Source: Oscillospiraceae bacterium
Lineage (GTDB): Bacteria > Bacillota > Clostridia > Oscillospirales > Acutalibacteraceae
Reading direction: 5' to 3'
DNA length: 64,000 nucleotides
NCBI GenBank assembly: GCA_902786285.1
Contig: CADABX010000002.1
Span: 108,308 to 172,307 of the forward strand
This document shows positions 22,520 through 43,324 of the stretch, in pieces (the first letter of the stretch is position 1; each line of letters begins with the position of its first letter). Position numbers and translations under genes: made by a program. The notes below the pieces were generated by a model. That model saw nothing but the letters and a program-made list of their open reading frames with translations, was not told where the DNA came from and did no database searches.

Positions 22520-22774
22520 ATGGGTCTTTTTACGGAAGCACGGGCAAAGCAGCTCGGCGCCTATATTGTGGAAACCGGAGCAACGGTGCGGCAGGCGGCG
22601 CAAAAATTTGCCGTGAGCAAATCGACGGTCCATGTGGATGTGACGCGCCGGCTGCGAACGCTCGACCCCGATTTGTACGACCGCGTGCGGCAGGTGCTCG
22701 ACGAAAACAAACGCGAACGGCATCTGCGCGGCGGGCTGGCAACCAAGCGAAAGTTTGCATCAACTGACTGTTGA
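22520..22774 (+). CDS. spoIIID: Sporulation transcriptional regulator SpoIIID
   Basis: The 84-residue protein matches SpoIIID throughout: YIVETGATVRQAAQKFAVSKSTVH forms the helix-turn-helix (about residues 15-40), and the basic C-terminal block VLDENKRERHLRGGLATKRK is the second DNA-contacting region. SpoIIID acts in the mother cell, repressing or activating many sigma-E genes and helping switch to sigma-K. The second of two nearby ATGs was chosen because GAGGAG is eight bases before it; the first, at 22514, is only two bases away. Confidence 0.94.
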   Translation: MGLFTEARAKQLGAYIVETGATVRQAAQKFAVSKSTVHVDVTRRLRTLDPDLYDRVRQVLDENKRERHLRGGLATKRKFASTDC

Positions 22775-22799
22775 CTTTTCAATTCAAATATGCTATACT
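22771..22799 (+). promoter_or_regulatory. Sigma-A type promoter of the hyd operon
   Basis: TTGACT, 17 bp, TATACT. The -35 overlaps the stop codon of spoIIID. Confidence 0.7.
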
Positions 22800-22804
22800 A
22801 CGCA

Positions 22805-22899
22805 CGTTACCTGACACAAAGAGCCATCTGCGTGAAAGGTGCGGCATAATCGTTGTAACGCGGGATCGCTGCGCCTTGTCGGGTGCGGCGATCTTTTTA
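22805..22899 (+). promoter_or_regulatory. Structured leader with terminator before the hyd operon (candidate attenuator or riboswitch)
   Basis: CGTTAC (22805-22810) pairs with GTAACG (22855-22860), enclosing a small hairpin CATCT/AGGTG. Right after it is a 12-bp terminator GATCGCTGCGCC / GGTGCGGCGATC with TTTTT (22864-22898). GGTGCGGC occurs twice, at 22838-22845 and in the terminator's 3' strand, so the first copy can pair with the terminator's 5' strand as an antiterminator. No known riboswitch class was recognised. Confidence 0.6.
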
Positions 22900-22924
22900 T
22901 TATTTATTGTATGGAGGACTATTT

Positions 22925-23173
22925 ATGGAAACCAGAGTTGCAGTGATGAGTATCATTGTGGAACAGACCGAAACTGTGGACGCGCTCAACGCGCTGCTGC
23001 ATGACTACGGCGATTACATTATCGGACGCATGGGCATTCCCTATCGTCAGAAGGGTATCAACATCATCTCCATCGCGCTCGACGCGCCGCAGGACACGCT
23101 CTCTGCGCTTGCGGGCAAGATCGGCAACCTGTCCGGCATCAGCGTCAAAACGGCGCTTGCGAATCTTTCGTGA
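22925..23173 (+). CDS. TM1266-type iron-only hydrogenase system regulator
   Basis: The 82-residue protein is an ACT/NikR-C-like ferredoxin-fold domain of the TM1266 family: RVAVMSIIVEQ, then LHDYGDYIIGRMGIPY, GINIISIALDAP and LAGKIGNLSGISVKTAL. The family is named for its frequent place beside hydrogenase maturation genes and is thought to sense a small ligand or act as a regulator; its role is unproven. GGAGG precedes the ATG. Its TGA overlaps the GTG start of hydE, indicating translational coupling. Confidence 0.88.
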   Translation: METRVAVMSIIVEQTETVDALNALLHDYGDYIIGRMGIPYRQKGINIISIALDAPQDTLSALAGKIGNLSGISVKTALANLS

Positions 23174-24240
23174 CCGCGCTTTCTTTGGCACGCGCCCTGT
23201 GTGCCGGCGAACCGTTGGACGCCGCCGCCTTTGAAACGCTGCTTGCGGAAAGCACCGAAGAAACCGACGCGCTGCTGAAGGGCGCCGCCGTGCGCGTGCG
23301 CAAAGAGATCTACGGCAACAGCGTTTTTGTGCGCGGCCTGATCGAGATCAGCAACGTTTGCAAAAACGACTGCTACTACTGCGGGATCCGCCGCAGCAAC
23401 CGCTGCGCCGACCGCTACCGGCTGACGAAGCAGCAGATTCTCGACTGCGCCGACGAGGGCTATCGCCTCGGCTTTCGCACCTTCGTTTTGCAATCGGGCG
23501 AGGACGGCGCGCTGACCGACGACTTTTTGTGCGATCTGATCGAAAAGATCAAAACTTCACACCTGGATTGCGCCGTCACACTTTCGCTCGGCGAACGCAG
23601 CAAAAAAAGCTATCAGATGCTCTTTGACGCAGGCGCGGACCGCTATCTGCTGCGGCATGAGACCGCAACGAAGGCGCACTACGAAAAGCTGCATCCGCCG
23701 GCGCTCTCGTTCGACAACCGGATACAGTGCCTGTATACACTGCGCGAGATCGGCTATCAGGTCGGCGCCGGCTTTATGGTCGGCTCGCCCTTTCAGACCA
23801 AAGCCGACCTTGCGCGCGATCTGTGCTTCATCCGCGACTTTGCGCCCGATATGTGCGGCATCGGTCCGTTCATTCCCCATAAGGATACGCCCTTTGCGCA
23901 GTATCCGCAAGGCGCGCTCAGCGAAACGTTGCGGCTGCTGTCTATCATCCGGCTGCTGAAACCGAACATCCTGCTGCCGGCAACCACCGCGCTCGGCACG
24001 ATCCATCCGCTGGGGCGCGAACTGGGGATCGAAGCCGGCGCAAACGTCGTGATGCCGAACCTGTCGCCGGTGGACGTGCGCAAGAAATATGCGCTCTACG
24101 ACAACAAGATCTGCACCGGCGAGGAATCCGCCCAATGTAAGGACTGCCTGTCGCGCCGGATAGAAAGTATCGGCTACGAAGTGGTCGTCGACCGCGGCGA
24201 TATCAAAAAAGAACCAGTATCATCTCACGCCGAAGAGTGA
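23170..24240 (+). CDS. hydE: [FeFe]-hydrogenase H-cluster radical SAM maturase HydE
   Basis: The 356-residue protein is a radical SAM TIM barrel with Cys64, Cys68 and Cys71 in CKNDCYYCGI binding the [4Fe-4S] cluster. Other HydE/PylB/BioB-group blocks are LQSGEDGAL, LSLGERSKKSYQML, YLLRHETA and VGSPFQTKADL. HydE acts on the HydG product in building the dithiomethylamine-bearing subcluster of the hydrogenase active site. It begins with GTG in a 4-base overlap with the preceding stop. The operon order is regulator, hydE, hydG, hydF. No hydA structural gene is in the window. Confidence 0.95.
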   Translation: MTALSLARALCAGEPLDAAAFETLLAESTEETDALLKGAAVRVRKEIYGNSVFVRGLIEISNVCKNDCYYCGIRRSNRCADRYRLTKQQILDCADEGYRLGFRTFVLQSGEDGALTDDFLCDLIEKIKTSHLDCAVTLSLGERSKKSYQMLFDAGADRYLLRHETATKAHYEKLHPPALSFDNRIQCLYTLREIGYQVGAGFMVGSPFQTKADLARDLCFIRDFAPDMCGIGPFIPHKDTPFAQYPQGALSETLRLLSIIRLLKPNILLPATTALGTIHPLGRELGIEAGANVVMPNLSPVDVRKKYALYDNKICTGEESAQCKDCLSRRIESIGYEVVVDRGDIKKEPVSSHAEE

Positions 24241-24268: not shown

Positions 24269-25717
24269 ATGGCAATCTACAACCCGTCCTCGCTCAAAGC
24301 CGAGGAATTCATCAACCACGAAGAAATTCTCGAAACCCTCGCCTATGCCGACGCGCACAAAAACGACCGTGCGCTGATCGATGAGATCTTGGAAAAAGCA
24401 AGACCGCAAAAGACCGCCACCGGCTACGTCTGCAAGGGCTTGTCGCACCGCGAAGCGTCCGTGCTGCTGGCAAACGACGATCCCGAAGTGCGCGAGGAGA
24501 TCTACAAAATCGCCGAAGAAATCAAGCTGGCGTTTTACGGCAACCGCATCGTCATCTTTGCGCCGCTGTATCTGTCCAACTACTGCGTCAACGGCTGCCT
24601 GTACTGCCCGTACCACCTCAAAAACAAGCATATCCCGCGCAAAAAGCTGACGCAGGAGGAGGTCAAGGCGGAGGTCATTGCGCTGCAGGACATGGGCCAC
24701 AAGCGTCTGGCGATCGAAGCAGGCGAGGACCCGAAAAACAACCCGATCGAATACATCCTCGACTGTATCAAAACCATCTACAGCGTGCACCACAAAAACG
24801 GCGACATCCGTCGCGTCAACGTCAATATTGCGGCTACGACCGTCGAAAACTACCGCAAGCTCAAGGACGCCGGCATCGGCACCTATATCCTGTTCCAGGA
24901 GACGTACAACAAGGAAAGCTATCTCTATCTCCATCCGACCGGCCCGAAGCACGACTACGACTACCACACCGAAGCGATGGACCGCGCCATGGCGGGCGGC
25001 ATCGACGACGTGGGTCTTGGCGTGCTGTTCGGTCTCGAGGGCTACCGCTACGAGTTCGCCGGTCTGCTGATGCACGCCGAGCATCTCGAAGCTGTCCACG
25101 GCGTCGGACCCCACACGATCAGCGTGCCGCGAGTGAAGAAAGCGGACGACATCGATCCCGACGCGTTTGACAACGGCATCGACGACGAAACCTTCGCCAA
25201 AATCACCGCCTGCATCCGTCTGGCGGTGCCCTATACCGGCATGATCATTTCCACGCGCGAGAGCGAACAGGTGCGCTCCAAGCTGCTGCGTCTCGGCATC
25301 TCGCAGGTCTCCGGCGGCTCACGCACGTCGGTCGGCGGCTATACGCAGGAAGAACGTCCCCACGACACTGAACAGTTTGACGTCTCCGACCAGCGGTCGC
25401 TGGACGAAGTGGTGCGTTGGCTGATGGAAAACGGCCACATTCCCTCGTTCTGCACGGCGTGCTACCGCGAGGGCCGCACCGGCGACCGGTTCATGTCGCT
25501 GTGCAAGAGCGGCCAGATCCTCAACTGCTGCCACCCGAACGCGCTGATGACGCTGACGGAATACCTCGAAGACTATGCGTCACCCGCCACGAAAGCTATC
25601 GGCTACGAAATGGTAGAGCGCGAGCTGCAGCGCATCCCGAAGGAAAAGGTGCGCGCAATCGCAAAAGATCACATCGAAGCGATCAAAAACTCCAACCGCC
25701 GCGACTTCCGCTTTTAA
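24269..25717 (+). CDS. hydG: [FeFe]-hydrogenase H-cluster radical SAM maturase HydG
   Basis: The 482-residue protein is a tyrosine lyase of the ThiH/HydG group. The radical SAM cluster is bound by Cys106, Cys110 and Cys113 in YCVNGCLYC. The C-terminal region has CTACYREGRTGDRFM and a later CC pair, the extra cluster site that separates HydG from ThiH. HydG splits tyrosine to p-cresol, CO and cyanide and delivers an Fe(CO)2(CN) unit. It follows hydE by 28 bp with AAAGGAA before the ATG, and hydF follows 10 bp later. Confidence 0.96.
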   Translation: MAIYNPSSLKAEEFINHEEILETLAYADAHKNDRALIDEILEKARPQKTATGYVCKGLSHREASVLLANDDPEVREEIYKIAEEIKLAFYGNRIVIFAPLYLSNYCVNGCLYCPYHLKNKHIPRKKLTQEEVKAEVIALQDMGHKRLAIEAGEDPKNNPIEYILDCIKTIYSVHHKNGDIRRVNVNIAATTVENYRKLKDAGIGTYILFQETYNKESYLYLHPTGPKHDYDYHTEAMDRAMAGGIDDVGLGVLFGLEGYRYEFAGLLMHAEHLEAVHGVGPHTISVPRVKKADDIDPDAFDNGIDDETFAKITACIRLAVPYTGMIISTRESEQVRSKLLRLGISQVSGGSRTSVGGYTQEERPHDTEQFDVSDQRSLDEVVRWLMENGHIPSFCTACYREGRTGDRFMSLCKSGQILNCCHPNALMTLTEYLEDYASPATKAIGYEMVERELQRIPKEKVRAIAKDHIEAIKNSNRRDFRF

Positions 25718-25727
25718 GGAGAACGCC

Positions 25728-26912
25728 ATGTCACTCAACGAAACCGTATCCGCCGAGCGCGTGCACATCAGCCTGTTCGGTTTGCGCAACGCGGGTAAAT
25801 CGAGCCTTGTCAACGCGCTGACCGGCCAAAGTCTCGCCGTGGTCTCGCCTGTCAAAGGCACCACGACCGACCCGGTCAAAAAGGCAATGGAGCTGCTGCC
25901 GCTCGGGCCGGTGCTGCTGACCGACACGCCGGGTCTCGACGACGCGGGCGACCTCGGCGCGCTGCGGGTGGAAAAGGCAAAAGAAACCCTCGCCCACACC
26001 GACATCGCGCTGCACGTGGTCGACGCGTTGGCCGGCCTGACCGCCCTCGACGAAGCGATGCTCGCGCAATACAAGTTACGCAAGCTGCCGTATCTGCTGG
26101 TAATGAACAAGGCCGACCTGCTGCCGGCCGTACCGCCCGACAGCGGCGACACTGTTTACGTCTCCGCCGCAACAGGGCAGGGGATCGACAAACTCAAGGA
26201 ACGCCTCGGCGCCTTCGCCAAAACGCTGCACAATGAAAAGCGGCTGATTGCCGATTTGGTCGACCCCGGCGACACGGTTGTGCTCGTGATCCCGATCGAC
26301 CGCTCTGCGCCGAAGGGACGGATCATTCTGCCGCAGCAGCAGGTGTTGCGCGAACTGCTCGACTGCCACTGCACGGCGCTGTGCTGCCAGCCGGAGGAAT
26401 TGCCCGGCGTACTCCACAATCTGCGCGTACCGCCGCGGCTGGTCGTGACCGATTCGCAGGCGTTCGCCCGCGTCGCACCGACGGTGCCCGACGCGGTTGC
26501 GCTCACGTCGTTTTCGATCCTCTTTGCGCGCTACAAAGGCAACCTCCAAGCCCAGCTGCAGGGCGCGGCCGCGCTGCCCGCCTTGCGCGACGGCGACACG
26601 GTGCTGATCGCCGAGGGCTGCACCCACCACCGCCAGTGCGGCGACATCGGCACGGAAAAGCTGCCAAACTGGATCCGGGCGTTCAGCGGCGCCGAGCCGC
26701 AGTTTCGCTTCACGTCCGGCGGCGAGTTTCCGGCTGATCTGTCCGGCGTCCGGCTCGTCGTCCACTGCGGCGGCTGCATGCTCAACGAACAGGTGATGCG
26801 CCACCGCCTCGCCCTTGCCGCGTCGCAGGGCGTGCCCGTGGTCAATTACGGCATGGCAATCGCCCACATGAACGGCATTTTAGCGCGCGCCGTGCGACCG
26901 CTGGAAGAATAA
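25728..26912 (+). CDS. hydF: [FeFe]-hydrogenase maturation GTPase HydF
   Basis: The 394-residue scaffold starts with a GTPase domain: P-loop GLRNAGKSS (about residues 18-26), KGTTTDPV, DTPGLDD and NKAD. After a dimerisation domain, the cluster-binding C-terminus has EGCTHHRQCGD and later VVHCGGCML, which supply the Cys and His ligands. HydF assembles the diiron subcluster from HydE and HydG products and transfers it to HydA. AAGGAG precedes the ATG. A strong terminator directly downstream closes the operon. Confidence 0.96.
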   Translation: MSLNETVSAERVHISLFGLRNAGKSSLVNALTGQSLAVVSPVKGTTTDPVKKAMELLPLGPVLLTDTPGLDDAGDLGALRVEKAKETLAHTDIALHVVDALAGLTALDEAMLAQYKLRKLPYLLVMNKADLLPAVPPDSGDTVYVSAATGQGIDKLKERLGAFAKTLHNEKRLIADLVDPGDTVVLVIPIDRSAPKGRIILPQQQVLRELLDCHCTALCCQPEELPGVLHNLRVPPRLVVTDSQAFARVAPTVPDAVALTSFSILFARYKGNLQAQLQGAAALPALRDGDTVLIAEGCTHHRQCGDIGTEKLPNWIRAFSGAEPQFRFTSGGEFPADLSGVRLVVHCGGCMLNEQVMRHRLALAASQGVPVVNYGMAIAHMNGILARAVRPLEE

Positions 26913-29260: not shown

Positions 29261-29312
29261 GGTCGTATTGTACCTTTTTGTGCAATGTGTCCAAATAGAA
29301 AGGAGATCAATC

Positions 29313-32300
29313 ATGAAAAAGTACCAAGCAAGAAAAGCACTCAGTGTTTTGCTGACTGTGCTGATGCTGCTGAGTTCCGTTTATCTGGGACTCGGCGTCA
29401 TCGCGTCTGCGCTGACGTCGGCTAATTTGCCGGCCAGCACGACGTCGTTGGCAGACGGCACCGTTTACCTTGTGACGGGGAACCAGACGATTGACCCGAG
29501 CAAGGTGCTGACGATTCCTGCGAATGCAACTGTTTTCATCCAGATTGCGGCTGGCGCATCGCTGACCGTGACCGGCAGCGATGCAAACGGGACAACCGCA
29601 GGCAAAGCGGCAATCAAGATGAACCAGAACAGTAAGCTGATCTTCATCGGCAGCGGAGCCTTGACCGTGAAAGGCGGAAAAGGCGCTAACGGCGGCAACG
29701 GCAGCAATAACAGTGGCACCAGCGGCGGCAACGGCGGCGCAGGAGGCGCAGGCGGCGGCGCTGGTATCGGTACCGACGGTGGCAACGTCGGCACAGCAGC
29801 TGGTGCCTGGCCAACAGGTGCTTCCGTTATAATTGCGGACACCGTTGGAGCGTTTATAACGAACGGGGACAACGGCACCGCAGGTAGCAACGGTACCCAG
29901 AGCAATTCCAGCTCAGCGGGTGGTTACGGCGGCGGCGGCGGTTACGGCGCAGGCGGTGCGGCGATCGGCACCGGCGGCGGCGGCGGCAGCAACGGCACCA
30001 AAGGTAGTAACGGTTCAACCGCTTGCGGCGGTTCAAAAGGGAACAACGGCACCGAAGGTAGTGACGGCTCTCGAACGGCAGAGGATAAATATTCAGAAAC
30101 AACAGCGTTCAGCGTTATGCAGGCGACGCTTGCAAGTAACGCAGCCACTCTAGCCCTCTCGCAGGGTGAGCAGCTGGAACTTGGCTATGACGCACTTAAT
30201 GCTGCATATACCCCAATCAACAATGCCAGGGATGCCGTCAATAACCTTGCGTCCGGCAGCGGTGTTTTTGCCTTCTTCTTCGGCTCCTACAGCGACGCGA
30301 TTGCGCAGCTGGAATCCTCCATGCTGATTGTACAGTATAAGCCGATCGTGGATAACATCAACGCCTATATCACCACGGATTATTCCGAGTATACAAAAGA
30401 TCAACTGGTAGCTTTGTATGAAAACCTTAATACGAGCTATACCAGCTATAAAGCACTTAACAATCCAACTGTTTACAACTACTTTGAAGTCGGCAATCCT
30501 CCGATTCTTAACCGCGCGGTGGTTGACGAAGAACTTGACAAGATCTTGAACGCACAGGAAATCGCCGTTCTGCGCGATGAGGTCAAACCTGCCATCGAAG
30601 CAGAGCTTGCAACGATTGCCGACTACGATCAGGACTGGGTGCTCGCCACCGATAACGCAGATGTGACGCTGAACGCTGCCAAAACTGCACTTACCGGTTA
30701 TGAAACTGCGCTCGGTACCTATAAGGCAACAAATGTTACGGCGGTTTTCGGTGAAAACTATGTTGCAACGGTTTTTGGCCCGGTGCGCGAAAAACTGAAT
30801 AAATTGTTGATTGACAACGATTATAAAGTTCAGTTTGCACAGTATAAGAGTGTCTATTCACAGGCGTTTGAGAATATTTCGCTGTCAACCTCAACGGATG
30901 ATCTCTATGCGGTTTTGAGCGCGCGTGACGGTTGGTATACGGATCTTCAGAATTATATTGCGTCAATCGAAGCATATGATCCTGCGCTTGCAGAAAAGAT
31001 TATGGCAACCACCGGAACAGCAATGCAGAATAAAATAGATACTGTCTACGCAATGCTGAATACCCGTGTGGAAGCGCAGATCAACAACGCTTACGATCAG
31101 TATATGGCTTTTGTAGCGGAATACGGCTATACAATCAATACTTCTGATGATGTCAATGTTAGAAACTATAACGACCTGCGTACAACGTTTGGTCAACTGA
31201 AACCCCAGCATTATGAATTCTTGCTGAATACAACGCACTTTGACGTTTCGGAAGAAACGGTTGCGAAGTACGACGCTATCAAAAATGCACTCTTCGCGTT
31301 CGATAATTACGACGCGACAAAAGGTCTTTCTGCGTATGCGTTTAATGCAGAAAAGGTAACCGATATTTTGCGCGAAGTTTCGGTGTATGATCGGGTTCGC
31401 AACCAGAATTATACAGTAGACGAAGTAAAGCGTGCAACTGCTTACAGCAATGTCAAAAAGTTGCTTGACAGCGATCTTGTAAAAGAGTCGCTTGGGTTCG
31501 ATTTAAATAAAACGATTTCTGATTTGATCAATGGGTTGCCTGAAAAGATTTATACGGACGAGTTTTTAAACACTTTGATTAAATTTGTCTATCCGGTGGT
31601 AGCAAAGGAATTTGCTAAAGTTTGGGCAGATTTGCCGTCGACGTATCCTCTTACAGATCCTGTTGAGACAACTTTGACACTGAAAATTGACGATTTACAT
31701 ACTGCGCTCGGCAGTGGAAAAATAGATTTGCCGCTGTTGCCCGATCTTCTTGCACTTAAACTCGGAGATAGTTTTCCGGAAGCAAAGGCAGCGTTGGCCA
31801 GAGTGCCGGCTACGGTCAGTTTTGATAAGCCGAACGATGAATGGATTGTTAACCCGTGGGAAAACGCAAACATTTATGACAGTGAGACAAAAAAGTTAAC
31901 ACTCGTCTGGGGAATTACAGATAAAGACAGTTTTCTGGATGCTGCTTCTGTTGCGCTCAAAGGTGTTGAACCGCTGTTACTTGCGCTTCTTTCCAATAAA
32001 ACACATGCTGTAACCGATAAAAAAGTCGGCACCGGTTCAGGTAGCTATGCTTGTGTTGATATTAAGGTCGACCCGATCAATCTGAATATGACATTCACTG
32101 GTAATCCCGGTTATAACAATGCGATCGCGCCGGTCCTGAGTGCGTTGGGCGCGAATGGTTTGCCGGACGGAAGCGCTTCTGCGATGCAGAATACCAAAGA
32201 TCTTTTGGAAAGCGGCTTGATAAATCCGATTCATAATGTTCTGGAGACAATTAAAGCGAATCCTTTGGATGCTATCCTTGATCTATTGCCGTCGCTGGCA

Positions 32301-35300
32301 TTTGCCTTGAATCATGGGTTATTAAATAACGCTCTGGGTGAACTCAAGACTAAGATTGAGTATAAAGCTATTGCAAAATACGATGCTGGTATCGGTGGAA
32401 GTGGCGAAAAAGAGGCTTTGTCGGACAGTATCGATATCAACCTTCTTAATATGCTTGATCTTACGAGCATGGGTATTGACATCACCTCCCCGGCTGCGCT
32501 TGTTAACTCCCTGATCGGTCTGCTGAGCAAGAGCGATGAAGCCGAGACAACGAATCAGGAAGAGCCAACAGAACCCTCCGGTCTTGCTGCAATTCTCGCT
32601 AAGCTTGATATTGACGAAATGTTCAAAAAGATTGCTTATCTTGGAACAGGTGTAGATTGGCAGGATGGTTATAGAACGGTATCGCCGTTCAACTGGCCCG
32701 GACATGAAGACGACTTCCCGCGCATTATTGCAAATCGCCCAGAGATCTTTGCTTATCTGGTGCAAAATATTCTTTCCATACTGGATAAAGATCTTGTGAA
32801 TGAATTGATGATTGCACTTGCTGGAAAAGATGATCAAGGCAATCCGAACCCGCCGCAGGAACTGCCCGAAATCGTTGATACGATTATTGATGATATTGCA
32901 AATAATCCTGACGATGCGATTGCAGCCATCGTGGAACTCATGGTCCCGCAGACCTATGACAACTATGCGAAACTCGAAACCCCGGCATCCTCCTTCACCT
33001 ATGACGATGAAACAATCACCGCGGCCGACGTGGCCTACCTGAAGTATGCGAACGACTGGGATAAGGACACCGCGTCTGCGGTTGCGACCAACGTTGATGC
33101 CCTGATTCCGGCCATCACCGGTCTGCTCGGCAAAGAAGTTGCGCTCAACACAATGCTGCAGAATGCGCTGAATGGCGTGTTCACCGGCGAAAACCTGACC
33201 AAGATCAACAACCTGATTGCAGGTGCTGTTGCCGGTCTTGCCGGCGGTGACGACGCAGGCGACGGCGACGAAGAAGAAGCCGGCGGCCTCGACATCCTCG
33301 GCCTGCTGAAGGATGAACTCGGCATTGATCTTAGCGAGTTCGCGGAAGTTGCCGAAGATTACGACTGGGGCATCACTGACGGCGACAAGGCGGCGTTTGT
33401 GAACAAGCTTTGCGGCATTCTCAATCCTCTGGCGCCCGTTCTGAAGCTCCTTGCGCCGGGTCAGGATCTTACCATGCTTGATGGCGTGATCACCGTCAAG
33501 GGCTACGACGTCTATCCGAAGTCCATCGGCCTGATCTTCGATGCCCTCGGCATCCCGCAGATCACCGGCTATCAGAACATGTCTGCAACAGAAGAACTCG
33601 AAGCGATTCTCAACGCGCTGCTTGCAAAGGTCGACGCACTGACCGCCGAAGGCAACAGCATGATCAAGGATGTGCTTGAACTTCTGCCGGACCTTGTCTA
33701 CTTCATTGAGAGCAATGGTCTGAGCGTTGCGATCAAGAACCTGATCTATCCGATCCAGATTCTCCTTGACACCATCTATCCGATCTATCCGATCGACTTG
33801 ATGGAACTCATCAGCGGCCTTGCTGCCGGCGATGAAGACACACCCGAACCGGGTACCGAACCGGCAGAGCCCACCGGTATTGCGGCGATTCTTGCAAACC
33901 TGGATCTTGACAACCTCAAGATGTCCACGATCCTCCCGATCGTTGACAATATGCTCGGCACCGAGCTGGTCCGCAGCCCGCTTGCGACCTATGCGATTCC
34001 GGCGCTGACCATCAAGCACGGCGACCTCGATGCGGCTGACGTTTTGACCATCCTGCTTTGCGGCGTGATCGAAGCGTTTGAAGCGGAAATCCTTGACGGC
34101 GACAACGCCGGCAAGACCAACGGCGACGTGATCCTTGCCATGATCGACAACGAGCAGGTCACCGATATCTACACGAAGATTGTTCCGCTGATTACCGGCG
34201 GTGAATCCGCGATTGATGAATCCAAGATCACCCCGATCAACTGGACGTATATGATGGGCGATGATTACGAGATTCAGCTTGCTGATTTCGAAATGCCCGC
34301 ATACTCAAACGAAGCGGTCATCAACTATCTGTCCACCTATGAAAAGAACCAGTGGACCGCAGAGCTTGCGGATTACCTGAACGACAACCTTGATTCCATC
34401 GTCAAAGACGTGCTGAAGGTTGCGGGCCAGAATGAAAATATGCTTGCAACGCTCATCAGCGGTCTGATCAACGACAAGCTTTACACGGCTGACGTTGTCA
34501 ACGCGGCCGGCAACGCGATCTACGGCCTGCTCGGCAACCTCGAAGACCAGCTGAAGGTTGTTGTCGACGCCCTGCTCGGCACCGAAATTGCCGGCAAGAC
34601 CTTTACGCCGGTTGAATCCGTGAACGGCAAGGCGGACTTCATCGCGAAGATGAAGGATATCCTCAATCCGTTCAACCGCATCCTCGGCTTCGTCCTCTTC
34701 GGCGGCAGCTACAAGTTCTTCAACGGCACGACCAGAGAAGATCTGCTGGTCCTGACCGGCGGCGACGCCTACAACGCTGCGCTGGTTCCGGTGCTCGAAG
34801 CTCTCGGTGTGAAAGCGCCTGTCTATGACAGCGAAACCGACAGCACCGGCGGCATGATCGACAAGATCCTGACGGCTGTGACCGACAGACTTGACGAAAT
34901 CGCCAACGATCCGATCAACAAGATCCTTGACTTGCTGCCGAACGTGCTCTACTTCCTGAACGCGGACGGTGTCAAGGCCATCATCAACAACGCGGTGCTG
35001 CCGTTTGACGCACTGGTTGAAGCTGTGACCGGCAACGATGCCGCGACCCTGCTTGCAGGTGTGGAAGTCAAGGGCGTCGCATTGAACGACCTGAACACCG
35101 AAAACATCCTTGACCTGATCGGCGGTCTGGCGAACATCCAGATTCCGGCGGGTGTGAAGAGCGCAGTCAGCTCCTTCTACATCGGCAAGGCTGTGTACTT
35201 CGAATCCGCCAACGGCAAACCGGCATTCAAGCTTGTCTATGACGGTGACCGCAAGGATATGATTACGATCCTCGCTTCTGTTCTGATCGAAGTGCTTGCC

Positions 35301-37067
35301 TATGAAGACAACGCCTCGATCCTGAAGGGCGTCAGCGAAGAAGCCTATCAGGTGGTTCTGAACATCCTCGGCAAGTCCGACGAAGAAATCAGCGTCCCGA
35401 TGAAGGTGCCCGAATGGCTGTATCCCGAAGCGGCCAACACCGGCAAGACCTTCTCCGCAATCAATACCAGCACAGAATTCGGCGCCTATGGCCCGCTGTT
35501 CACGCAGGAAATGGCGATCTATCTGGCTGATAACCTCGATGACTTCATCGACAACCTGATCTATCTGCTTGGTATTCCGGCCGACGCACTCGAAGGCCTC
35601 GGCATCCACAGCAGCACCGATGAATACATCACCTCCCTCAAGGATCTGCTCAACACCGTGATCGGCGATACGGTTTACACAACCGACATCGCAGATATGC
35701 TGCTGAACCTTGTGGAAGAAAAACTCGTCAAGACTGTCAACGAACTGACGATCAAAGGCGTGAATATGTCCGGCATCGTGAAGAACGTGCTCAAGACGGC
35801 GCTCAAGGTTGACCTTGACCGCTACACCGACGGCACTGAATTCACAAAGGACGGCGACGGCAAGTATCATGTCCAGCCGTTCGCAAAGGGCAGCAAGGAA
35901 GGCTTCCTGAACGCACTCACGCAGATTCTTGACCCGGTCTATCCGGTGCTCAACTGGCTGCTTTGCGAAGAAGATCTCCACTTCTTCACCGACAGCAACG
36001 GCGATCATCAGATCACGCTCAAGGGCGGTCAGGGCTACAAGTACGGTATCATCCCGATTCTTGAAACCTTCGACTGCACCAACCTGCCGACACAGGCAGA
36101 TGTCAGCGCAACGACCGACACAGCTTCGTTGGTCAACACCATTGCGACTCCGCTGCTGAGCCGGATCGACAAGCTCCTTGAAAACCCGGTTGACGAAATC
36201 TTTGAACTGCTGCCGAACGTGGCATACTTCATCAACTCCAAGGGCCTCGACGCCTGCGTGCGCAACATGACCAACGCGATCAATGTGGTCCTGAAGGAAC
36301 TGCAGCCGTTGGTCGGCGACGTTGACCTGTTCGCGGCGCTCGGTATCGACCTGAGCACGCTCGACATGCAGTACATCCTGAACGCCATCACCGACAAGAT
36401 CGGCGAAGGCTCCACGCAGGATCTGGTTCCGCTGGTTGTTGACGCACTGGCTGAACTGACCACCGGTAAGATCGTCACCAGCAGCTCCCAGTCTGAACTG
36501 ACGCCGTGGTACAAGATGGAATACGCTGGCGAAGCCTCCAAGGCTGACACCATCACCACACTGCTGCGCTTCGCGCTCAGATGGGTTGCCCTCAACAAGG
36601 ATCAGCTCAAGACCCTTGTCCGCGAAAAGATCGAAATGAGCGATGAAGGCTACGCCTATATCGACAAGCTCATCGACATCGTCGGCGCCTATGCAGGCAC
36701 CAACAGCGGTATGGATTCCATCCTGCACATGCTGTATTACATCTTCTATGGTGTGCATACCGGCACCACCAAGGTTGCGAACTGGCAGAGAGACTACAAC
36801 ACCAGACTGCAGCTTGTGGCGGAAGGTGAACAAAAGGCTTCTGCCCGCGACGAAAACCTCGGCAAGGTCGCCGAACTGCTCGACTTCCTGTTCACCGAGT
36901 ATGTCGGCGGCGACAAGGATGACACAGGCAACGTGTATCACAACTATCCGGACAGCGAATATGGCAACAACAGCAAGCCCGGCTTTGCGTCCAACGGCTT
37001 CATCGCCTTCTTCCAGCAGATCATCAACTGGATCAAGACGATCATCAACAAGGTGTTCCATCGCTGA
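29313..37067 (+). CDS. Giant secreted surface protein with Gly-rich region and four tandem helical modules
   Basis: About 2,584 residues. A signal peptide (residues 1 to about 35) is followed by a short beta region, a Gly/Asn/Ser-rich stretch (about 120-255), a helical stretch, and four tandem modules of about 410-490 residues. Each module has a block like LNPLAPVLKLL or LDPVYPVLNWLL, then a G-x-G-Y/D-x-Y..P-I/V-L-E-A-L-G block, then ILDLLPNVLYFLNADG followed by an amphipathic helix; the blocks begin near residues 878, 1370, 1784 and 2206. The C-terminus is FFQQIINWIKTIINKVFHR, with no LPxTG, SLH or choline-binding motif. The ATG follows AAAGGAGATC. The function is unknown; adhesion or a surface layer is a guess. 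Confidence 0.85.
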   Translation: MKKYQARKALSVLLTVLMLLSSVYLGLGVIASALTSANLPASTTSLADGTVYLVTGNQTIDPSKVLTIPANATVFIQIAAGASLTVTGSDANGTTAGKAAIKMNQNSKLIFIGSGALTVKGGKGANGGNGSNNSGTSGGNGGAGGAGGGAGIGTDGGNVGTAAGAWPTGASVIIADTVGAFITNGDNGTAGSNGTQSNSSSAGGYGGGGGYGAGGAAIGTGGGGGSNGTKGSNGSTACGGSKGNNGTEGSDGSRTAEDKYSETTAFSVMQATLASNAATLALSQGEQLELGYDALNAAYTPINNARDAVNNLASGSGVFAFFFGSYSDAIAQLESSMLIVQYKPIVDNINAYITTDYSEYTKDQLVALYENLNTSYTSYKALNNPTVYNYFEVGNPPILNRAVVDEELDKILNAQEIAVLRDEVKPAIEAELATIADYDQDWVLATDNADVTLNAAKTALTGYETALGTYKATNVTAVFGENYVATVFGPVREKLNKLLIDNDYKVQFAQYKSVYSQAFENISLSTSTDDLYAVLSARDGWYTDLQNYIASIEAYDPALAEKIMATTGTAMQNKIDTVYAMLNTRVEAQINNAYDQYMAFVAEYGYTINTSDDVNVRNYNDLRTTFGQLKPQHYEFLLNTTHFDVSEETVAKYDAIKNALFAFDNYDATKGLSAYAFNAEKVTDILREVSVYDRVRNQNYTVDEVKRATAYSNVKKLLDSDLVKESLGFDLNKTISDLINGLPEKIYTDEFLNTLIKFVYPVVAKEFAKVWADLPSTYPLTDPVETTLTLKIDDLHTALGSGKIDLPLLPDLLALKLGDSFPEAKAALARVPATVSFDKPNDEWIVNPWENANIYDSETKKLTLVWGITDKDSFLDAASVALKGVEPLLLALLSNKTHAVTDKKVGTGSGSYACVDIKVDPINLNMTFTGNPGYNNAIAPVLSALGANGLPDGSASAMQNTKDLLESGLINPIHNVLETIKANPLDAILDLLPSLAFALNHGLLNNALGELKTKIEYKAIAKYDAGIGGSGEKEALSDSIDINLLNMLDLTSMGIDITSPAALVNSLIGLLSKSDEAETTNQEEPTEPSGLAAILAKLDIDEMFKKIAYLGTGVDWQDGYRTVSPFNWPGHEDDFPRIIANRPEIFAYLVQNILSILDKDLVNELMIALAGKDDQGNPNPPQELPEIVDTIIDDIANNPDDAIAAIVELMVPQTYDNYAKLETPASSFTYDDETITAADVAYLKYANDWDKDTASAVATNVDALIPAITGLLGKEVALNTMLQNALNGVFTGENLTKINNLIAGAVAGLAGGDDAGDGDEEEAGGLDILGLLKDELGIDLSEFAEVAEDYDWGITDGDKAAFVNKLCGILNPLAPVLKLLAPGQDLTMLDGVITVKGYDVYPKSIGLIFDALGIPQITGYQNMSATEELEAILNALLAKVDALTAEGNSMIKDVLELLPDLVYFIESNGLSVAIKNLIYPIQILLDTIYPIYPIDLMELISGLAAGDEDTPEPGTEPAEPTGIAAILANLDLDNLKMSTILPIVDNMLGTELVRSPLATYAIPALTIKHGDLDAADVLTILLCGVIEAFEAEILDGDNAGKTNGDVILAMIDNEQVTDIYTKIVPLITGGESAIDESKITPINWTYMMGDDYEIQLADFEMPAYSNEAVINYLSTYEKNQWTAELADYLNDNLDSIVKDVLKVAGQNENMLATLISGLINDKLYTADVVNAAGNAIYGLLGNLEDQLKVVVDALLGTEIAGKTFTPVESVNGKADFIAKMKDILNPFNRILGFVLFGGSYKFFNGTTREDLLVLTGGDAYNAALVPVLEALGVKAPVYDSETDSTGGMIDKILTAVTDRLDEIANDPINKILDLLPNVLYFLNADGVKAIINNAVLPFDALVEAVTGNDAATLLAGVEVKGVALNDLNTENILDLIGGLANIQIPAGVKSAVSSFYIGKAVYFESANGKPAFKLVYDGDRKDMITILASVLIEVLAYEDNASILKGVSEEAYQVVLNILGKSDEEISVPMKVPEWLYPEAANTGKTFSAINTSTEFGAYGPLFTQEMAIYLADNLDDFIDNLIYLLGIPADALEGLGIHSSTDEYITSLKDLLNTVIGDTVYTTDIADMLLNLVEEKLVKTVNELTIKGVNMSGIVKNVLKTALKVDLDRYTDGTEFTKDGDGKYHVQPFAKGSKEGFLNALTQILDPVYPVLNWLLCEEDLHFFTDSNGDHQITLKGGQGYKYGIIPILETFDCTNLPTQADVSATTDTASLVNTIATPLLSRIDKLLENPVDEIFELLPNVAYFINSKGLDACVRNMTNAINVVLKELQPLVGDVDLFAALGIDLSTLDMQYILNAITDKIGEGSTQDLVPLVVDALAELTTGKIVTSSSQSELTPWYKMEYAGEASKADTITTLLRFALRWVALNKDQLKTLVREKIEMSDEGYAYIDKLIDIVGAYAGTNSGMDSILHMLYYIFYGVHTGTTKVANWQRDYNTRLQLVAEGEQKASARDENLGKVAELLDFLFTEYVGGDKDDTGNVYHNYPDSEYGNNSKPGFASNGFIAFFQQIINWIKTIINKVFHR

Positions 37068-43106: not shown

Positions 43107-43132
43107 AGCACGGTAAGCTCCTTTTTGAGCTT

Positions 43133-43298
43133 TCGATAGAGGCGCAAGTGCGATCAGTACCGGTTTCCCGCTTTGCAACAGGCGATGGGGCACCGCGAAA
43201 GGCGCAGTTGCCGAAGGAAGCGCCGGTTGCACGGCCGTTTCCTGGGCGGTACGGAAAACATCCTGCCGACTGTCGCACCACCCTGCGGAGAGCTATCA
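43133..43298 (+). ncRNA. Lysine riboswitch (L-box)
   Basis: Conserved L-box blocks are visible in order: GATAGAGGCGC at the 5' end, GATCAGTA, GCGAAAGGCGCAGTTGCCGAAGG in the middle, CGGCCG, and GCGGAGAGCTATC at the 3' end, which pairs with GATAG to form P1. L-boxes bind lysine and usually switch off lysine synthesis or import genes. Confidence 0.88.
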
Positions 43299-43324
43299 CA
43301 AGACAACAAGTATGCTTTGTTTGC

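Follow-up and report, generated by a model that had tools for sequence, protein, structure and literature searches.

A conserved leader hairpin ahead of [FeFe]-hydrogenase maturation genes is a candidate OFF-type attenuator of H-cluster supply

In the window (the whole stretch of 64,000 nucleotides that was analysed), a TM1266-hydE-hydG-hydF operon is preceded by a leader in which a conserved hairpin, a predicted antiterminator and an intrinsic terminator follow one another (Table 1). This leader is proposed to be a regulated attenuator that would switch off H-cluster supply to the [FeFe]-hydrogenase, a reading to which a probability of roughly 0.6 is assigned on the basis of predicted folding and comparison among genomes. 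A first-pass annotation had described an attenuator-like leader before a hydrogenase maturation operon, and conservation, covariation and alternative pairing support that description. With its sensor corrected, the observation holds, and the riboswitch-like reading has good support as regards form.

The order of promoter and operon is as previously annotated, and the products of all four genes exceed their NCBIfam cut-offs. Transcription would start near 22806. In 70 of 95 leaders, compared with 17.3 in shuffled sequences, a box with at most one mismatch to TATAAT precedes the motif by 6–16 nt. The terminator is also present, with TTTTT directly after the stem-loop, but its stem measures 13 bp rather than the 12 bp first reported; it has a 4-nt loop and a predicted energy of −22.4 kcal/mol. 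The repeat that had been noted, GGTGCGGC, occurs at 22838–22845 and again at 22882–22889. The stretch from 22760 to 22960 has a folding z of −2.5, and 2 of 200 shuffles fold as well. Elsewhere in the window, the gene upstream of the promoter is SpoIIID-like (97 bits, under the cut-off of 111.5), a lysine riboswitch (RF00168, 80.6 bits) is found at 43129–43303 of the plus strand, and a single very long plus-strand open reading frame at 29268–37067 encodes 2599 amino acids from its first start and looks, by eye, repetitive and secreted.

Table 1. Positions of the leader elements and operon genes within the window.
Feature	Position	Strand	Basis
Promoter: TTGACT 22771–22776, 17-nt spacer, TATACT 22794–22799	22771–22799	+	sequence; sigma-70-like
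Sensor hairpin, conserved, 30 nt	22810–22839	+	R2 match, pair counts, RNAalifold, column conservation
Antiterminator 5′ strand AAGGTGCGGC, overlaps hairpin base	22836–22845	+	sequential folding (predicted)
Antiterminator 3′ strand GCTGCGCCTT, common to terminator 5′ arm	22868–22877	+	sequential folding (predicted)
Intrinsic terminator: stem-loop 22864–22893 and U tract 22894–22898	22864–22898	+	folding
GGAGG, likely Shine-Dalgarno of TM1266	22913–22917	+	sequence
TM1266-family gene (PF21699, TIGR03959), first regulated gene, ATG 22925	22925–23173	+	profile match
hydE	23170–24240	+	TIGR03956, 551.8 bits
hydG	24269–25717	+	TIGR03955, 909.7 bits
hydF	25728–26912	+	TIGR03918, 524.3 bits

TM1266 was placed in 94 of the 200 genomes of the family, and the best 30 places were taken as loci and their upstream sequence read. 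A model, R1, was prepared from 19 leaders picked by eye (17 of these best-30 loci together with L002 and L003), excluding the divergent-looking L042, L045, L058 and L060. Searching 100 loci with R1 gave 97 matches, with L045, L058 and L060 unmatched, and a second model, R2, was built from them. The R1 leaders share the consensus YCUGACAC-AAAG-variable-CUGM-GUGAAAG, give or take a few letters. In the window, R2 matches 22806–22844 (47.1 bits, E 8.6e-12; the next match has E 1.4), and the conserved domain comprises the hairpin plus a tail to 22845. The family structure consists of a CCU/AGG helix, a 2x2 internal loop (GA/AA), 3–4 bp, another 2x2 loop rich in purines, and a hairpin that varies; its version in the window is CCU/AGG, GA/AA, CAC/GUG, AA/GC and AGA.../UCU with a variable apex. 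The middle helix of 3–4 bp is mostly CAC/GUG or CAU/GUG, and CCG/CGG, CAAA/UUUG and CACC/GGUG are also seen by eye. The first loop is near-invariant: among 96 distinct rows its G is kept in 95 and its three A's in all 96.

The pairing is borne out by covariation. In A1, a MAFFT alignment of the 19 leaders, 92.3% of cells are paired, six pairs show changes on both sides, and 11 double-change cells are counted relative to 1.8 in shuffles. In the 96 distinct rows, 95.0% of cells are paired and 71 cells carry double changes, relative to a shuffled mean of 14.9, with none of 500 shuffles reaching the observed count; shifting the pairing partners abolishes the signal, and RNAalifold recovers seven of nine pairs from this same alignment, which is model-fitted and to that extent biased towards the model, as A1 is not. 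For 19 author-chosen loci, 16 of them outside the model's alignment (the matches at L097, L210 and L211 were already inside), 92.4% of cells are paired, with 25 double-change cells relative to 6.5 in shuffles. The count of additional pair types does not stand out, being reached by 70, 17 and 45 of 500 shuffles for A1, the 96 rows and the 19 chosen loci, respectively. The first-pass annotation had proposed that leaders of relatives be compared for covariation and that a lack of conservation would count against the idea; the covariation is present and the leader is widely conserved. A conserved folded domain whose pairs covary and whose unpaired bases hardly change, as expected of a riboswitch, is seen.

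The sensor originally suggested was a different one, a folded domain closed by CGTTAC/GTAACG (22805–22810 with 22855–22860). This outer helix was rejected, as it does not appear in the 22760–22960 fold and an equivalent exists in 4 of 96 leaders relative to 5.4 expected from shuffles; it is likewise absent from the growing-transcript folds described below, which start at 22806 and so leave out its first base. A K-turn, considered by eye, was discarded: the loop is symmetric (2x2) and has no 3-nt bulge.

The 3′ strand of the hairpin and its tail (AAAGGUGCGGC in the window) are complementary to the 5′ arm of the terminator. When the growing transcript of the window is folded, the hairpin is predicted to form first, 22836–22845 then pairs with 22868–22877 and leaves the hairpin base open, and finally the terminator is completed and stands alongside the hairpin. 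The mutual exclusion envisaged in the first-pass annotation is in this form predicted. Among the 97 leaders, a simple scan finds terminators in 82, of which 72 (70 distinct) pass a filter for energy (≤ −10) and start (15–100 nt downstream). The antiterminator is part of the minimum-energy fold of the prefix in 62 of these 72 leaders, relative to 169 of 720 shuffled-linker controls. The hairpin base is closed in 2 of 72 prefixes versus 46 of 72 full leaders, and the terminator is predicted to form in 64, with the complete swap seen as minimum-energy structures in only 41. For the 70 distinct leaders, the native pairing of tail and arm has a mean of −10.2 kcal/mol versus −8.3 kcal/mol after swapping, a value reached in none of 1000 swaps; the effect per leader is modest, as only 14 of the 70 native tails outperform 90% of the foreign ones. 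Computationally, the parts of a transcription attenuator are therefore all present: a sensor, an antiterminator, a terminator and exclusive pairing among them, kept in relatives.

These results bear on the simplest alternative, a constitutive terminator that dampens read-through and is surrounded by chance similarity. Such a terminator would agree with the 82 hits of the simple scan, but the near-invariant loops, the covariation, the coevolution of tail and arm and the Shine-Dalgarno version of the leader described next all speak against it. Based on the tail-arm fit and the antiterminator counts, this alternative was rejected as highly improbable.

In three leaders (L079, L083 and L089) from three genomes of one genus, GAAAGGTGG lies 6–8 nt before the ATG of a gene likened by eye to hydG, and the 3′ strand of the hairpin is the Shine-Dalgarno of that gene. 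The helix that holds AAAG is part of the minimum-energy fold of L079 and L089; it is not in that of L083. Since the 3′ strand is itself the Shine-Dalgarno, binding to the hairpin would in these leaders block translation instead. Both layouts imply an OFF switch, with the closed hairpin as the putative OFF state in the terminator and Shine-Dalgarno versions alike.

The motif occurs mostly before H-cluster genes. A plain DNA pattern that is blind to genes found at least 119 stretches in the species-genome collection, 80 of which were examined as loci. Downstream of 76 lies a tblastn match to TM1266, HydE or HydG, at 63–264 nt in 75 and at 912 nt in L125; TM1266 is the first such match in 72. Three of the remaining four have 74–135 nt left, and the fourth, L097, leads an ECF-type gene 101 nt downstream. 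An order-wide census of 394 genomes with R2 (E ≤ 0.001, filtered at the cost of weak matches) yielded 39 matches in 38 genomes, and 35 of these, comprising 32 of the 36 fetched loci, the window, G031 and G095, precede H-cluster genes or importer operons. The exceptions are L336, L338 and L340, near none of 12 query proteins, and L337, which has 234 nt left before the contig end. Among the best 30 TM1266 loci of the family, an R2 match (E ≤ 0.001) is present in 20, just upstream in 18 and farther away at L039 (approximately 0.5 kb) and L059 (approximately 1.2 kb, of doubtful relevance); no such match is found in the fetched stretch of the other 10, and the RNA is therefore not needed by every such operon.

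Wider searches were noisier. A class-wide scan with R1 at E ≤ 1 hit 157 of 391 genomes, and much of this is probably chance; among the 30 loci read, L061 is the window, L063 is the same place as L057, and L080, L084, L085, L086, L087 and L090 were set aside as unrelated. Class-wide matches also lead, by eye, aspA followed by hydF (L066, L074), hydE (L068) and hydG (L076, L081). At L212 and L213 (G669 and G473), the motif leads an aspartate ammonia-lyase-like gene, assigned by eye, and then a hydF-like gene. At L106, it stands before TM1266 in a metagenome-assembled genome labelled Abditibacteriota, which could be contamination. A DNA similarity search with the whole leader (E ≤ 10) is mostly noise, because some match is obtained in 195 of 197 genomes; among the 30 loci given, L001 is the window, L002, L003, L004 and L010 are leaders, and L007 and L016 are not.

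A riboswitch for a general metabolite of the pathway, namely tyrosine, SAM, cysteine, iron or a redox signal, would suit an operon in which HydE and HydG are radical SAM enzymes and HydG uses tyrosine. With the three census exceptions, however, the copies that have enough downstream sequence lead H-cluster genes or linked transporters, and no copy among them was observed upstream of a tyrosine, SAM or general iron gene. Copies before importer-like genes in 14 genomes with no detectable HydE or HydG argue in the same direction, and the earlier suggestion of tyrosine or SAM as the ligand is made less likely by them. A general metabolite is accordingly considered an unlikely effector.

In these 14 importer-type genomes (G758–G763, G766–G772 and G778), the motif leads an importer-like gene (L097, L092, L094, L122, L139, L146, L096, L123, L124, L149, L150, L151, L168 and L132). 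In 13, an ECF-type substrate-binding gene follows, with TM1266 in between in 12 and without it in G758 (L097), where TM1266 adjoins the hydA operon; in G759, the genes after the motif are TM1266 and those of an NMT1-like binding protein and a permease. The ECF assignment is based on PF12822, which matched three of four proteins tested, with the others likened by eye. As 13 of the 14 are of this one kind, they perhaps reflect one event. Two further motif genomes, G765 and G773 (Lachnospiraceae records), have the order motif-TM1266-hydF. At L219 (G744), a genome with HydG, a second TM1266 gene is followed by SsuA/NMT1-type ABC transporter genes, and no R1 match is among those listed on that contig.

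No HydG-family match at E ≤ 0.001 was found in these 16 motif genomes (the 14 importer-type genomes with G765 and G773), for which completeness is not given and the pattern is consistent. In seven HydG-bearing control genomes, the HydG-family search returns a second match of 55–90 bits, and HydE proteins score 55–65 bits there; because a HydE-sized second match is seen in these controls, HydE is probably absent from the 16 genomes as well, as judged by the same search. HydA (PF02906) is nonetheless kept in all 15 HydG-less genomes tested (the 16 minus G778). HydF exceeds its cut-off in only two of the 15, G765 and G773, and in none of the 13 importer-type genomes tested, all of which have HydA. 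When HydA was compared with three H-cluster patterns, 9 of the 15 genomes had all three in a HydA. The third pattern is missing in G765, G769 and G773, and likewise in four of six HydG-bearing controls, and G761, G763 and G767 have only a second HydA type with no match to the middle pattern. The seven controls all carry HydG, six have HydA (not G680) and six have HydF over the cut-off (not G776). In G680 (L353), a 93% complete genome of 1.2 Mb, HydG, HydF, TM1266 and a HydE-like gene are present with no HydA match.

A third type of operon consists of the motif, TM1266, FecCD, an ABC ATPase fused to a TM1266 domain, and NifH-like and NifD/E-like proteins. It is found in G031 (L210), G095 (L211) and G148 (L331), which belong to one genus, as well as in G929 (L333) and G884 (L341, 1624–10623); in G884, TM1266 is not seen as a separate gene. 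A binding protein follows in G031 and G884, the two scanned, and the operon includes HydE in G929 and both HydE and HydF in G884. G031 and G095 have HydA, HydE and HydF, and no HydG over the cut-off was found in either, the best match scoring 172 bits against a cut-off of 312 and being ThiH-like by eye. This gene content suggests that the FecBCD plus NifH/NifDE-like module may stand in for HydG.

The protein encoded directly behind most copies of the motif is itself a candidate effector. TM1266 belongs to PF21699, annotated as "iron-only hydrogenase system regulator, putative", and its AlphaFold model is closest to PDB 2nzc and to NikR C-terminal domains, with ACT domains further down the list. 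Based on this comparison, the protein would be a NikR-C-like domain only, without the DNA-binding part. An alternative that overlaps with the proposed attenuator is that TM1266, bare or carrying a metal or an H-cluster intermediate, attaches to the hairpin and directs its own operon towards termination, much as proteins of the LicT or PyrR type read their leaders. The predicted lack of a DNA-binding part and the rank of TM1266 as first match in the pattern loci favour it, as does the presence of TM1266 in all 30 motif genomes tested (22/22 and 8/8); this last count is trivial where the gene is in the motif's operon but holds also for five genomes with TM1266 elsewhere (G680, G424, G669, G473 and G758). 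GRMGxPY is also retained in both aligned copies fused to an ABC ATPase. The occurrence of TM1266 as a fusion with a transporter ATPase, however, points to substrate sensing more than to RNA binding, and no TM1266 was found in the motif's operon at L311, L312, L316 and L330. TM1266 as the effector is therefore a plausible alternative, held at somewhat under an even chance. TM1266 may be what the hairpin binds, and it may sense the same compound as the RNA.

For the attenuator proposed here, a bound effector would hold the hairpin, block the antiterminator and stop transcription; without effector, the antiterminator would form first and the genes would be read. The putative effector is a compound made during H-cluster assembly, either an intermediate or a product (an Fe-CO-CN synthon or the 2Fe precursor), and the RNA would detect it directly or through bound TM1266. 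This is suggested by the placement of one RNA before both the synthesis operon and, in HydA-keeping genomes without detectable maturases, importer-like genes. A shared RNA that precedes synthesis genes in some genomes, and putative importers in genomes where those genes are missing, usually points to end-product sensing. Small-molecule aptamers seldom consist of one imperfect hairpin, a form typical of protein-binding RNA. Import of a finished H-cluster precursor is chemically plausible, since two reports describe that apo-HydA can become active in vitro when given a synthetic di-iron complex, also in the absence of any auxiliary protein (PMC7460606, PMC12933642). The boldest extension of these observations, in which this leader exemplifies a new class of RNA that detects an organometallic H-cluster intermediate by itself or together with TM1266, Clostridia with an [FeFe]-hydrogenase and without HydG, HydE and mostly HydF import that intermediate through RNA-controlled ECF or ABC importers, and the FecBCD plus NifH/NifDE-like module replaces HydG elsewhere, is regarded as speculative and, taken as a whole, doubtful.

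If the attenuator reading is true, [FeFe]-hydrogenase maturation would have an RNA regulator, the first that we are aware of, and two questions could be approached through it: the signal sensed by TM1266, and the way in which the enzyme matures in bacteria that have HydA but lack detectable HydE, HydF and HydG. If the importers carry the 2Fe precursor, bacteria would share an organometallic cofactor as a common good, and a natural transporter could serve to activate hydrogenase inside cells.

Consistent with the earlier remark that the leader belongs to no described class, no Rfam 15 family reaches its gathering score in the leader (whole-window scan) or in 20 related loci. At E up to 10, only three matches appear, all under their own gathering scores, and the Rfam T-box model matches neither the leader nor the 20 loci. 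Titles and abstract openings among the matches listed name no RNA of this kind, and within the openly licensed literature none of the matches listed deals with an RNA upstream of hyd genes or with how an H-cluster precursor is transported. The first gene of the operon is a member of TM1266/PF21699, but PF21699 is a protein family. Terminator-type riboswitches share with this leader a 5′ sensor, mutually exclusive helices, OFF logic and the placement of synthesis and import genes under one RNA; unlike them, the leader has a single hairpin of approximately 30 nt, a ligand that is a candidate only, and no Rfam match. The RAT elements of LicT/SacY and the RNAs of PyrR and HutP are protein-read attenuator hairpins. 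Those of them that Rfam includes do not match the leader, which resembles this group as an imperfect hairpin that has internal loops and may be read by a protein encoded in its own operon, but differs in that its hairpin would favour the terminator and its candidate protein is a NikR-C-like domain.
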